Shown here one piece after another: positions 2,844 through 7,368 of a stretch of DNA of 64,000 bases. Source of the stretch: Pseudohalocynthiibacter aestuariivivens (GTDB lineage: Bacteria; Pseudomonadota; Alphaproteobacteria; Rhodobacterales; Rhodobacteraceae); contig NZ_CP049037.1 of NCBI RefSeq assembly GCF_011040495.1, forward strand, positions 992,001 to 1,056,000, read 5' to 3'. How positions within the stretch are numbered: position 1 is the first letter of the stretch; each line of letters opens with the position of its first letter. A model generated the notes under the pieces. The model searched no databases and was not told where the DNA came from. It saw only the letters and a list, made by a program, of their open reading frames with translations. A program made the translations under genes and the position numbers.

Positions 2844-3145
2844 AGTGCTTCGCCGGCCGCGCAACGCGCGCTGTCGGCGGCATTCCTCTGGGGCGCAGAA
2901 CAGGATTCCCAACTTCAAAGGACCATCTTCTGCATGCCGGATTAATCGAAAAAGTGACCCTGACTGTAGATTTCTTCTTCGTCTCCTAAAAGAACGACCA
3001 ATGTTCTCGTCACCAGCACCAGCACCAGCCTTCGAAATGAACCGAAAGGACCCTGCCGAACACAACGCATCTCCCAACCGCAGAAAACATGACGCCGATG
3101 AATCAGGCAACACCAGCACCTTTCATGCATGCAAGGGAGACAATC
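2844..3145. other. intergenic, nothing seen
   Basis: Roughly 300 bases between two small accessory genes. Open frames cross it but none has a ribosome site or recognisable product, and I see no hairpin or repeat of note. Confidence 0.4.
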
Positions 3146-3496
3146 ATGCTCAACACGGACACCGCGAATATTAGCCAGGCCCGCTACGATGCGGTCGCTG
3201 CGACTGAGAGACACCTGCGTCGCAATGGCGCCGGGCTTTGCAACCTGCTCGACGCGCTCGACGATCCAGCCGGCTTTGAAGCCTTGTGCCGCCTGCATAG
3301 CGCATTCAGCCATTCTTTCCCGGATGCGGATGCGGTCGAAGATGCCGTGAACGATATCACCCGCTTTCTCGCGGATCAGTCGTGTTCATCGCTCGACAAG
3401 ATCGGCATTGAGCGAAACTTCGCGGCAGCTGATATGGCTCGATGGCACGGCGCCCGGATCAGCGAGATTCATGGTAAGTTTAGCCATGCCCGATGA
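3146..3496 (+). CDS. hypothetical protein, accessory region
   Basis: 116 residues starting MLNTDTANIS. The ATG at 3146 has AGGGAG at a normal distance and is preferred to an upstream in-frame ATG at 3089. The sequence is mixed helical with three cysteines, no signal peptide and no membrane segment; I do not recognise it. Its stop overlaps the likely start of the next gene, suggesting co-translation. Confidence 0.5.
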   Translation: MLNTDTANISQARYDAVAATERHLRRNGAGLCNLLDALDDPAGFEALCRLHSAFSHSFPDADAVEDAVNDITRFLADQSCSSLDKIGIERNFAAADMARWHGARISEIHGKFSHAR

Positions 3497-3878
3497 CCCG
3501 CGCTGCGTATTACAGATCAGCCAAGAAAGCCGCCTTAAAAACCACCCTGGTACGTTCGGTCCGGAACAGGATATCTGCGATATCACGCTGTGGCTCAATC
3601 AGCGCTTTCCCCTCTCGAAAGCGCGTGTGCTGGTTGGTCGGCACTATACCCAACGCGACCGCGAGATCGCTGGCCTTGCGGTTACAAGTTCGGCCACGCA
3701 TTCCGTGTCCCTGGCTCCACTTGCTTTCGAGGCGTTTGTAGCCTTGGGGTACCGGGTCCAGGAGACGAGCGGTGACAGCTATGAGTGCCCCTCTTGTTAT
3801 GGGTATCACTCAAGGCATGAAGCGCTGAAAGCCTATGTGCGCATCGAAAGCGCGCTACGGGTCTGGCGTTCACAATAG
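3486..3878 (+). CDS. hypothetical protein with C-terminal CxxC motif
   Basis: About 130 residues from the ATG at 3486, whose codon overlaps the previous gene's end; in-frame ATGs at 3471 and 3408 are alternatives, so the start is uncertain. Near the C terminus the segment YECPSCYGYHSRHEAL has CxxC followed by histidines, which could bind zinc, but only one cysteine pair is present. No family is recognised. A strong terminator lies 22 bases after the stop, marking the end of this small-gene cluster. Confidence 0.5.
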   Translation: MPDDPRCVLQISQESRLKNHPGTFGPEQDICDITLWLNQRFPLSKARVLVGRHYTQRDREIAGLAVTSSATHSVSLAPLAFEAFVALGYRVQETSGDSYECPSCYGYHSRHEALKAYVRIESALRVWRSQ

Positions 3879-4287: not shown

Positions 4288-6795
4288 TCACCCGCACTTG
4301 CTATGACCACAACTGGCGCAGGTCATGCAGCCCTCGATCATGCGCATGTCGTATTGTCCGCAGCTGGGGCATGCCGGGCCGCGATTTGAGCCGAGATTGA
4401 CTACCTCGGCCTGCGGGTCGGATTTCAAACCCAGACCTTCGCCCGCCAAAAACCCGGTGCGGATCATGTGCTGTTCCAGAATGCCCCCGATGGCGGCTAA
4501 GATGGACGGGACGTATTTGCCCTGCATCCACGCGCCTCCGCGCGGGTCAAAGACCGCTTTCAGTTCTTCGACCACGAAACTGACGTCGCCTCCGCGCCGG
4601 AATACGGCCGAGATCATCCGCGTCAGCGCCACGGTCCATGCGAAATGTTCCATGTTCTTGGAGTTGATGAACACCTCGAAGGGGCGACGATGGCCGCTCA
4701 TGACGATGTCGTTCACGGTGATGTAGATCGCATGGTTGCTATCGGGCCATTTCAACTTGTATGTCGCGCCTTCCAGTTCCGTGGGCCGGTCCAGCGGCTC
4801 GGACATGTAGATGACGTCGCCATGCGGGGTTTGGGGTTCGGTGTCGGAGTTGGCGATAATTTCGGGCGCATCATCTCGATTTCCATAAAGCAACCAACCT
4901 GCTGGCACTCCAAATGTCTTGGCTACGAGCGCTGCCCCCTCTTTAGACAGTGCATCATTTTTCTGAACCCAATGGGAGTACCGGCTTCTCTGGACACCTA
5001 GCGCGGAAGCCGCCTCTAGCTGCGTCGTAAATCCTGCTTTTTCTTGTGACCACTTCACTCGTTCCGCAGTGGTCTCCAACGATGGTAAGCTATCTTTTTC
5101 ATCCGACACACTCAACACCGACCCCGTCACGTCATTCGGCCGGTACGTCGTGCAGCCTTTGCAGCCCTGCTCCCACGCCTGCATATAGACGCTCTTGAAC
5201 GCCTCAAAGCTGATGTCCACGGGGCAGTTGATTGTCTTGGAAATGCTGCTGTCCACCCAGCGTTGCGCAGCGGCCTGCATCTTGACGTGATCAGCGGGGG
5301 CCAGCGTCTGGGCATTGACGAAATGATCGGGTAGCGGTGCATCGCCGAACTTTTCCCGCCAGAGCGCCACAGCGTAATCCACCACTTCTTCTTCGGTGCG
5401 GCTGCCATCCTTTTGCAGCACCTTGCGCGTGTAGGAATAGGCAAACACCGGCTCAATCCCGCTACTGACATTGCCAGCATAGAGGCTGATGGTCCCGGTT
5501 GGCGCGATCGAGGTCAGAAGTGCGTTGCGAATGCCGTGCTGCGCAATCGCGTCGCGCACATCGGCATCCATCCCCATCATGTTACCGGTGGCCAGATAGG
5601 CCTCCGCATCAAAGAGCGGAAAGGCGCCCTTCTCCTTGGCCAGATCGACCGAGGCCAGATAGGCCGCACGCGCAATCGCATGCAGCCAATCGCCGGTTTG
5701 CGCCGCCGCCGCGTCACTGCCATAGCGCAGCCCCAGCATCAGCAACGCGTCGGCCAGCCCTGTCACGCCCAGACCGATCCGCCGCTTGGCCTGCGCCTCG
5801 CGGGCTTGTGCCTCCAGCGGGAATTTCGACACATCCACCACGTTGTCCATCATCCGCACCGCGGTCGCCACCAACTCTGCCAACGCCGTCTGGTCCAGCG
5901 CCGCGTCCGCCTCGAACGGGTCACGCACCAGCCGCGCCAGATTGATCGACCCCAGCAGGCACGCGCCATAAGGCGGCAAAGGTTGCTCGCCGCAGGGATT
6001 GGTCGCCGCGATATCCTCGCAATAGCTCAGGTTATTGGCCTGATTGATCCGGTCGATGAAAATCACCCCGGGCTCGGCAAAATCATAGGTCGCCTGCATG
6101 ATACGATTCCACAGATCACGCGCCTGCACGGTGCGATATATCTTATCATCAAAGACCAGATCCCACGCACCATCCGCGTCGACCGCGCGCATGAACTCAT
6201 CCGTGACCAGAACGCTGAGGTTGAACATGCGCAGGCGTGCCGCATCGGCCTTGGCGGCGATGAAATCCTCGATATCGGGATGATCGCAGCGCATCGTCGC
6301 CATCATCGCGCCTCTGCGACTGCCCGCGCTCATGATCGTGCGGCACATCGCATCCCAAACATCCATGAAGCTGAGCGGCCCACTGGCGTCTGCACCCACA
6401 CCTTTGACGTCTGCGCCGCGTGGGCGGATCGTGCTGAAATCATAGCCGATCCCCCCGCCCTGCTGCATGGTCAGTGCTGCCTCGCGCAGATTGTCGAAAA
6501 TCCCGCCCATATCGTCCGGGACCGTCCCCATGACAAAGCAGTTAAACAACGTCACCCGGCGCGCCGTGCCCGCCCCGGCCGTGATCCGACCCGCTGGCAG
6601 GAATTTGAAATCTTCCAGCGCGGCGTAAAATTTGTCCTCCCAGTTGTCTGGGGTCTGCTCGCCCTCGGCCAGTGCGCGCGCGATGCGCCTCCAACTGTCC
6701 TCGACGGACGCATCGATCGCCGTTCCATCCGGCGTCTTGAAGCGGTACTTCATATTCCAGATTTGCTCGGCAATCGGGGCAGAAAAACGGGTCAT
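4288..6795 (-). CDS. nrdJ: adenosylcobalamin-dependent (class II) ribonucleotide reductase with internal XRE-like HTH
   Basis: 835 residues. Reduces ribonucleotides to deoxyribonucleotides using a radical generated from coenzyme B12, independent of oxygen. Visible family marks are Cys86 in FNCF, the active-site NPCGEQ with Cys268, the PTGT loop, and a C-terminal cysteine-rich tail ending SKCG that would carry the redox-active or zinc-binding cysteines. Between the catalytic barrel (ending near VTGSVL) and the C-terminal domain (resuming near YMSEPLDRP) sits an extra segment, about residues 566-645, that looks like an XRE/phage-repressor helix-turn-helix (ERVKWSQEKAGF...GWLLYG). Codon use there includes TTA, CGA and AGA, unlike the surrounding gene. 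No cobalamin-riboswitch box was found upstream. The main call is firm. Confidence 0.95.
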   Translation of the reverse strand: MTRFSAPIAEQIWNMKYRFKTPDGTAIDASVEDSWRRIARALAEGEQTPDNWEDKFYAALEDFKFLPAGRITAGAGTARRVTLFNCFVMGTVPDDMGGIFDNLREAALTMQQGGGIGYDFSTIRPRGADVKGVGADASGPLSFMDVWDAMCRTIMSAGSRRGAMMATMRCDHPDIEDFIAAKADAARLRMFNLSVLVTDEFMRAVDADGAWDLVFDDKIYRTVQARDLWNRIMQATYDFAEPGVIFIDRINQANNLSYCEDIAATNPCGEQPLPPYGACLLGSINLARLVRDPFEADAALDQTALAELVATAVRMMDNVVDVSKFPLEAQAREAQAKRRIGLGVTGLADALLMLGLRYGSDAAAAQTGDWLHAIARAAYLASVDLAKEKGAFPLFDAEAYLATGNMMGMDADVRDAIAQHGIRNALLTSIAPTGTISLYAGNVSSGIEPVFAYSYTRKVLQKDGSRTEEEVVDYAVALWREKFGDAPLPDHFVNAQTLAPADHVKMQAAAQRWVDSSISKTINCPVDISFEAFKSVYMQAWEQGCKGCTTYRPNDVTGSVLSVSDEKDSLPSLETTAERVKWSQEKAGFTTQLEAASALGVQRSRYSHWVQKNDALSKEGAALVAKTFGVPAGWLLYGNRDDAPEIIANSDTEPQTPHGDVIYMSEPLDRPTELEGATYKLKWPDSNHAIYITVNDIVMSGHRRPFEVFINSKNMEHFAWTVALTRMISAVFRRGGDVSFVVEELKAVFDPRGGAWMQGKYVPSILAAIGGILEQHMIRTGFLAGEGLGLKSDPQAEVVNLGSNRGPACPSCGQYDMRMIEGCMTCASCGHSKCG

Positions 6796-6933
6796 GGCAC
6801 AATATCCGGGGGTTGCAGCGGCAGGAAACCACCGTATCCGCGCACGCCATACAGGTCAACCGAACATGCGGGGATTACACCTGTGCGCACATGCTCTATT
6901 GAACTCGACACCGAATCCCATACCCTTGGTTTC

Positions 6934-7368
6934 ATGACTGCCGCGCCACTCAACCTTATCAAGCTCAGCGTCGGCACCGAAAGTGTCGAAAGCCTGATCG
7001 CCTGGCAGAAAAACCCGCGCGCCCATGGTGCGGATGGGGCGCCGCGACATGTGACTCGGATGTGGCCCCGCCGTGAGGTTGAGCTGCTACAGGGTGGCTC
7101 GATCTACTGGGTGATTCAGGGGCTGGTGCAGTGTCGTCAGGTGATTGTCCGGCTCGACGAAGTCGTTCGCGAAGACGGCATCCGGCGGTGCGGGATCGTG
7201 CTGACACCCGAAATCATTCGCACGACGACGGTGCAAAAACGCCCATTTCAAGGCTGGCGCTACCTGCCCGGAGCAGAAGCGCCTCCGGATTTGGCACGTA
7301 CGCGGCACGACGAGGACGCGCTGCCCGCAGCGTTATCGGCTGCGCTAGCGGATATCGGTGTGATCTAG
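6934..7368 (+). CDS. DUF1489 family protein
   Basis: 144 residues starting MTAAPLNLIKLSVG, divergent from nrdJ. The conserved segment HVTRMWPRR and the late RPFQGWRYL motif match the alphaproteobacterial DUF1489 family, whose function is unknown. It appears cytoplasmic, with no signal or membrane segment. The open frame extends far upstream antisense to nrdJ, but that part is a high-G+C shadow; the ATG at 6934 is the first that leaves nrdJ its promoter region. Confidence 0.8.
   Translation: MTAAPLNLIKLSVGTESVESLIAWQKNPRAHGADGAPRHVTRMWPRREVELLQGGSIYWVIQGLVQCRQVIVRLDEVVREDGIRRCGIVLTPEIIRTTTVQKRPFQGWRYLPGAEAPPDLARTRHDEDALPAALSAALADIGVI

Follow-up and report, generated by a model that had tools for sequence, protein, structure and literature searches.

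The subject of this analysis is the nrdJ gene of Pseudohalocynthiibacter aestuariivivens (Rhodobacteraceae), which encodes a class II ribonucleotide reductase (RNR) and lies in a 64,000-nt stretch of contig NZ_CP049037.1 (positions 992,001 to 1,056,000; hereafter the window, whose own numbering is used for its features). The linker joining the catalytic barrel of the enzyme to its TSCPD domain contains a helix-turn-helix (HTH) domain of the XRE/CI type. In relatives from the same family, this position is occupied by a short linker or by an XRE/CI-like HTH domain, of which there are many. To judge from the sequences compared, the inserts behave as exchangeable cassettes. We propose, with a probability of about 0.38, that the cassette is a DNA-binding module that is swapped by homologous recombination and kept diverse, perhaps acting as a strain-specific repressor of phage or mobile DNA.

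An HTH inserted between the barrel and the C-terminal domain of this RNR had been suggested in an earlier note made from the window sequence alone, and both profile matches and the predicted fold agree with it. Scored on the insert alone, the HTH_3 model gave 24.0 and 25.1 bits (cut-off 23; E 4e-5 at 24.0), while within the full-length protein it scored 19.4 bits, below the cut-off. Phage_CI_repr (PF07022) missed its threshold, with a best score of 21.5 bits against a cut-off of 22, and phrog_2328, a "transcriptional repressor" family, matched the insert at E 6.7e-10. Structure prediction for the segment with AlphaFold2, a check proposed in the earlier note, returned an HTH. Five helices are predicted, as in the lambda-repressor-like fold, with block-mean confidence scores (pLDDT) of 76-89 in the full-length model and 82-91 in a model of the insert only; the full-length model is of low quality (mean pLDDT 65) apart from the insert and some stretches of the barrel. 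The closest structural neighbours of the insert are the DNA-binding domains of ImmR, P22 c2, SinR and 434 Cro, and the HTH folds of HppE, MPnS and Stl-dUTPase are also among its neighbours. On these models, we regard the inserted XRE/CI-type HTH as real.

The insert also stands out in composition. The base counts given in the earlier note, 95 G+C in 180 nt (4921-5100) against 45 in 60 nt (5701-5760), proved exact on recount. For the four codons that it named as deviating, the counts in the 80 codons of residues 571-650 and in the 724 elsewhere are 0 and 1 for TTA, 2 and 0 for CGA, 1 and 1 for AGA, and 2 and 4 for CCA; 13 mostly A-ending codons, a list of our own choosing, account for 18 of the 80 and 38 of the 724 (Fisher p 1.5e-6). 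Apart from the insert, the class II RNR looks intact by sequence. It scores 588 bits with TIGR02504, over the curated cut-off of 400, and 424 bits with PF02867 (cut-off 23.9), and is also matched by PF00317. Cys86, Cys268 (in NPCGE) and Cys279, which we take to be the catalytic cysteines, align with cysteines of the Thermotoga NrdJ 1xje; the cysteine-rich C-terminus presumably serves as a redox/zinc tail. The genome encodes a second, long class II NrdJ (open frame of 1236 amino acids, G000:C1:169846-171987), the short and long NrdJ being its only two genes of the RNR barrel family at E<=0.001, and it also carries an NrdR gene.

To describe the distribution of the insert, 295 genomes of the family, nearly all from different genera, were surveyed. 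The window protein matched 293 of them at E<=0.001, some only through the long paralogue among the matches listed, and an insert was read in at least 35 (30 loci plus G101, G048, G253, G230 and G009). A finer search with the C-terminal half of the protein, covering 74 genomes, located a short NrdJ in 66; nine had the insert, the same nine as in the broader survey, and 57 lacked it, the lack being defined as a gap of <=60 nt between the two matched parts. Most relatives examined closely thus lack the segment, against the alternative raised in the earlier note of a non-HTH linker common to most class II enzymes; the note's statement that the family passes directly from VTGSVL to SEPLDRP was not upheld, the extracted insertless linkers being 18-34 residues long. 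Within the window's genus, 58 of 60 genomes have a short NrdJ and the other two matched weakly. Here the insert was read in G000 and G352 and is indicated in G305 by match, not by reading; 28 short linkers were read, and the rest are scored as insertless by match coordinates. The HTH of G352 is of another kind, 29% identical to that of the window, in a body that is 92-94% identical. Some insertless linkers, such as that of L104 (SVAEEKKEEAPEVVTTSEEEPQQPHGDV), have the same flanks as insert-bearing ones and in sequence look as an empty site would. Among the 120 NrdJ proteins listed, many have no precomputed HTH domain, and nearly all of the names given are those of plain reductases.

The inserts are diverse. 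Extraction from loci and proteins, leaving out P0085 and five locus entries, gave 128 unique inserts, 125 of them with >500 residues before the insert; these 125 fall into 31 clusters (greedy clustering, 45% identity). HTH_3 was detected in 30 of the 31 cluster representatives at a lax E<=1, and two families of phage transcription regulators, phrog_8 and phrog_4, in 28 and 26 at E<=0.001. Other kinds are under-sampled because the protein sample, the best 120 of 399, was drawn with a type-A query; a second seed, L034, found only 3. All kinds occupy the same place. In one NrdJ of 954 amino acids (P0084) two HTHs of different kinds stand in tandem, separated by a Pro/Gly-rich peptide. The same kinds recur across genera, while near-identical proteins carry different kinds.

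Comparison of whole proteins sets the insert sharply apart from its surroundings: median identity is 84% before the insert and 83% after it, and 33% in the insert core. In the pair L004/P0076, 559 of 561 body residues before the insert and 172 of 173 after it are alike, and the cores are 30% identical; for L010/P0115 the figures are 552/561, 173/173 and 29%. L073 and P0117, both named Puniceibacterium confluentis, agree at 559/561 positions before and 36/36 after and have cores 24% identical, the C-side value resting on 36 residues because P0117 is a 691-residue fragment. Among the Ruegeria pomeroyi proteins, P0005 and P0104 bear the species name and have bodies alike at 555/561 and 166/173 positions; P0096 and P0115 are assigned to this species by their bodies, 99% and 97.5% identical to P0005 before the insert. 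These four proteins have four different cores, 30-49% identical with the shared flank ends included, and L010 (genome G031, body 97%) supplies a fifth insert of the set. L122, also named R. pomeroyi, is empty, and matches P0005 at 560/561 and 173/173 positions (1 of 734 body residues different); genome G353, a 99% match to P0005, is likewise empty. In the empty form the whole linker differs, beyond the HTH alone. The evidence for domain swapping between strains lies outside the window and is invisible from the window sequence.

The DNA sequences show the same boundaries. Between L010 and the empty L215 and L217, identity per 15-nt block is 87-100% before the linker (80% in the last block), falls to 27-67% across it and then, over about 30 nt, recovers to 93%. 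For the pairs L004/L075, L069/L070 and L001/L034, identity is 96%, 92% and 87% in the 300 nt before the linker, 54-56% in linker plus HTH, and 91%, 92% and 84% after the insert. On a FastTree phylogeny of 202 bodies, insert excluded, presence or absence of an insert requires 30 changes as compared with 55-72 in 100 shuffles, and insert kind requires 62 as compared with 61-66 (21 kinds by average linkage at 40%, 119 rows, 53 of them in one kind). Insert presence is therefore partly inherited, and kind almost free of descent. The shuffles cover the kinds drawn at 40%; drawn at 50% identity, 45 kinds need 85 changes, and drawn at 35%, 12 kinds need 47. The Spearman correlation, computed from 7140 pairs among 120 rows, is 0.53 between N- and C-terminal body and 0.09 between N-terminal body and HTH. 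Cores are <40% identical in 13 of the 25 pairs with body identity >=96%, a share that is not a rate because identical inserts were collapsed. Rows P0021-P0056, mostly near-identical (P0025 is its own kind), were dropped, 25 from the tree and 5 from the pair statistics.

Within kinds, the inserts seem to be under constraint. In 27 same-kind pairs (core identity >=55%), which are not independent, 10 coming from five t7 loci, the proportion of nonsynonymous differences (pN) in the HTH is 0.17-0.35 and that of synonymous differences (pS) 0.51-0.88, a result that lends support and is not proof. Synonymous change is higher in the insert than in the body in 25 of the 27, which may also reflect codon bias. 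G+C content at third codon positions (GC3) is lower in the insert than in the body in 48 of 50 loci (mean 0.60 and 0.84), and lower than in every body window of equal length in 47 of 50.

The insert sequences point to a repressor-like ancestry as likely. The phage proteins that score best against the window insert are S24/CI repressors with 32-33% identity, from Rhizobium phages, from phi80 and from a Labrenzia phage; further matches, 39% identical along a shorter segment, are DNA-binding proteins of streptococcal satellite phages. The L012 insert reaches 54% identity to a phage repressor, and that of L010 has no match among phage or plasmid sequences. In a search of 290 family genomes, the window insert has NrdJ copies as its nine best matches (35-65%, apart from itself), followed by six free proteins at 31-39%. 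The insert kind of L024 likewise finds three NrdJ copies before any free protein; the free proteins reach 46% at most, and in some the C-terminus looks S24-like to the eye. The L012 insert, at a strict E<=1e-10, finds NrdJ copies only. No close free-standing relative of the window insert was found in phages or family genomes, and a search with the insert alone of a set of 5.8 billion proteins, with candidates limited to about 55-175 amino acids, gave five candidates and no hit. The suggestion of a domesticated phage domain made in the earlier note is thus upheld as to the CI/S24 repressor likeness, at 33%, and lacks a close free-standing relative. From these comparisons, long residence of HTH inserts in NrdJ appears likely; recent capture of a phage repressor domain is unproven.

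NrdJ is also encoded by phages of this group. An origin of the insert-bearing gene in phages was considered and rejected: the linker was readable (up to the next anchor or the frame end) in 46 of 49 viral loci, and inspection by eye showed an HTH in none of the 46; five chosen viral linkers scanned against Pfam also yielded none. In viral L155, L168, L150 and L153 this linker contains insertions of a different sort, tens of residues long and unrecognised. An Aeromonas match (L147) was set aside as a 717-amino-acid frame of a more distant RNR with no HTH seen. An intein remnant was rejected as the identity of the insert, intein-like insertions in this gene sitting instead at residue ~268. There, in the TNPCGE motif, the short NrdJ of G305, G309, G327, G329 and G331 contains long extra sequence, likely inteins. 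In P0122 (1202 amino acids), precomputed PF14528 and PF14890, which we take to be intein-type domains, occur together with an HTH.

A further element occurs in the linker of L194, where a palindromic repeat of ~80 bp lies in frame behind the HTH (G230:C6:1097195-1097277; fold -56 kcal/mol, z -3.35). It is also present behind the HTH of L193, and at E<=0.001 it is matched 14 times in G230, 8 times in G009 and, in part only, 4 times in G000. Similar Pro/Gly-rich peptides were noted by eye in L074, P0077, P0084 and P0101. The in-frame palindromic elements of Rickettsia resemble this repeat. In L193 (G009:C3:463000-473000), nrdJ with its HTH is split into two frames of 752 and 240 amino acids; the break lies behind the HTH, around the repeat, and marks either a broken copy or a sequencing error.

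The features of the window gene are collected in Table 1.

Table 1. nrdJ and its parts, in window coordinates.
Feature	Position	Strand	Basis
nrdJ, class II ribonucleotide reductase (B12-dependent by family), 835 amino acids, predicted	4288..6795	-	open reading frame, family models
Catalytic barrel, residues 85-551	5143..6543	-	PF02867 match; cysteine alignment
Linker plus insert, residues 562-661; exchangeable cassette including flanks (SVSDEK...PHGDV)	4813..5112	-	extraction; exchange seen in relatives
XRE/CI-type helix-turn-helix, five helices, residues 576-637	4885..5070	-	domain matches, predicted structure, structural neighbours
Putative recognition helix (third helix), residues 603-611	4963..4989	-	DSSP on models; role inferred from fold
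TSCPD domain, residues 685-777	4465..4743	-	PF12637
C-terminal cysteine-rich tail CPSCGQ...CMTCASCGHSKC, residues 809-834	4294..4371	-	sequence
nrdJ upstream region	6796..6936	-	inverted-repeat and motif scans

Regions upstream of nrdJ were compared by motif scans and simple inverted-repeat scans in 127 distinct cases, 48 with an insert and 79 without. A DnaA-box-like sequence, TTATCCACA, occurs in 44 of the 127 (17/48 with insert, 27/79 without), and ATATNGTAG, a motif that we take to be NrdR-like, in 47 (23/48 and 24/79). No clear copy of either was seen in the window's own upstream region, nor was there a perfect inverted repeat (arm >=6, gap <=8) in the 200 nt upstream of its nrdJ; inspection by eye and a simple scan of the 48 insert-bearing regions showed no palindrome common to one kind. 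Around 145 loci (58 with insert, 87 without), none of the 25 largest neighbour families was common to the insert-bearing ones. The strongest lean (16/58 with insert, 5/87 without) was discarded as an artefact, an open reading frame antisense to an apparent hisG. Two overlapping frames downstream of the window nrdJ, both on the plus strand and without Pfam match, belong to families found near nrdJ in 5 insert-bearing loci and 1 insertless locus (3408-3878) and in 4 and 0 (3089-3496), counts that are small and come from sets differing in flank length. PADLOC-DB, queried for anti-phage defence, gave 0 families for the NrdJ protein and for the insert.

We favour the following explanation, in which the linker is disordered and permissive. 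Cassettes very probably move between nrdJ alleles; the pattern is observed and the mechanism inferred, the near-identical gene body on either side providing the homology by which transferred DNA would recombine. Delivery may be by the gene transfer agents of these bacteria. The HTH would be retained because it has a role, the simplest being that the RNR dimer binds DNA. This idea draws on the low pN seen beside high pS in same-kind pairs and on the confinement of the inserts to a single fold, and we give it, like DNA recognition by the insert in general, about even odds. Beyond this, selection may favour variety, because a given kind turns up in several genera while proteins that are nearly identical carry unlike ones. 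The cassettes would then most likely recognise DNA targets that vary, for example the operators of mobile elements or temperate phages, and the enzyme would double as an immunity-type repressor; this step is speculative and rather doubtful, and the odds for phage or mobile-element DNA as the target are low. A reading in which the enzyme, as bearer of a hypervariable, interchangeable recognition domain, is also a strain-specific repressor or sensor of such DNA, with the HTH kinds maintained in a population-wide pool under frequency-dependent selection, is unlikely. Several findings weigh against the proposal as a whole. Same-kind pairs were chosen by amino-acid identity, which lowers pN; because low values are in part built in by this choice, functional retention was given no more than the even weight stated. 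The inserts are neutral in charge on average and acidic in some kinds, and this, together with the enzyme precedents of the fold, means that DNA binding is not to be presumed. Finally, simple scans of the 48 insert-bearing upstream regions found neither a self-operator nor one that follows the kind.

Other explanations account for part of the same evidence. If any XRE HTH sufficed to bring the enzyme to DNA, for example for local supply of deoxyribonucleoside triphosphates (dNTPs) at replication or repair, the kinds would be interchangeable since specificity would be irrelevant. The DNA-binding-type fold common to the kinds, their free replacement of one another and the long class II paralogue in the genome, which allows specialisation, agree with such a tether; we nevertheless consider it unlikely, given that 57 of 66 closely examined relatives have no HTH, that insert charge is neutral or acidic, and that free exchange alone leaves the difference between near-identical proteins unexplained. 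The charge data suit a variable surface for something other than DNA, the HTH being a protein-protein module or decoy that evades or catches proteins of phages or antagonists. The enzyme HTH folds and Stl-dUTPase among the structural neighbours, the NrdJ carried by phages of the group, and the 46 readable viral linkers, in which no HTH was seen by eye, point the same way, but confinement to the XRE fold would be unexplained and no candidate partner gene lies nearby; this too we judge unlikely.

A permissive linker that functionless pieces, among them HTH fragments and palindromic repeats, enter and leave by drift would be in keeping with the in-frame repeat of L194, the other insertions in some viral NrdJs and the atypical GC3 of nearly all inserts. 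Such a passenger is harder to reconcile with low pN at high pS within kinds (subject to the caveat on pair selection), with the match of 30 of 31 representative inserts to one HTH family, and with the finding that each of three kinds tried is matched best, within the family genomes, by other NrdJ inserts; it is quite improbable. Least probable is repression by NrdJ of its own promoter, coupling enzyme level to expression, as raised in the earlier note. Metabolic enzymes such as PutA and BirA do regulate their own genes, a precedent in its favour; the upstream motifs, however, are about equally common with and without insert and show no clear dependence on its presence or kind, nothing specific to either emerged from the scans of the 127 regions, and the genome has an NrdR gene. 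Taken together, the restriction to one DNA-binding-type fold, the apparent constraint within kinds and the swapping between near-identical genes fit recognition better than they fit a tether or a passenger.

The window NrdJ resembles class II NrdJ (TIGR02504; T. maritima 1xje) in its barrel, N-terminal alpha domain and aligned cysteines, and insertless relatives in its TSCPD domain and cysteine-rich tail; it differs by the exchangeable HTH in the linker. With phage CI/S24 repressors (P22 c2, 434, phi80 CI) the insert shares the five-helix XRE fold and its best-scoring phage sequence matches, at 33% identity; unlike them it is embedded in an enzyme and has no dimerisation or S24 domain of its own. 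HppE, HEPD and MPnS are comparable by fold, as enzymes with a Cro-like helical domain, which in them is probably structural or catalytic. The Stl repressor of SaPI, an XRE repressor, is reported to act together with phage dUTPase, an enzyme of the dNTP pool; these are two separate proteins, and NrdJ with its insert is one chain. HsdS target-recognition domains and phage immunity regions are alike in having unlike cassettes at one point of a conserved frame; unlike these, the NrdJ cassette sits in an enzyme of nucleotide metabolism, and its specificity is putative. Where genes are otherwise nearly identical, the swapping of a domain at one point is characteristic of recognition under conflict, as in restriction specificity and immunity.

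HTH folds in enzymes are known, and so are swappable specificity domains; to the extent that the literature was searched, a ribonucleotide reductase that combines the two is new. Titles and abstract openings on RNR or NrdJ with HTH, insertion or swapping mention no HTH in NrdJ, and in the main text of PMC3653736 a term search for "helix-turn-helix" and "HTH" gave 0 occurrences. HTH domains in enzyme genes are easily overlooked. Natural alleles of the same species exist with an HTH, without one and with a different one. If swapping in this ribonucleotide reductase does reflect recognition, it would link dNTP supply to DNA recognition, and if the cassettes were indeed strain-specific repressors, nrdJ would represent an immunity-allele system hidden in a metabolic gene.
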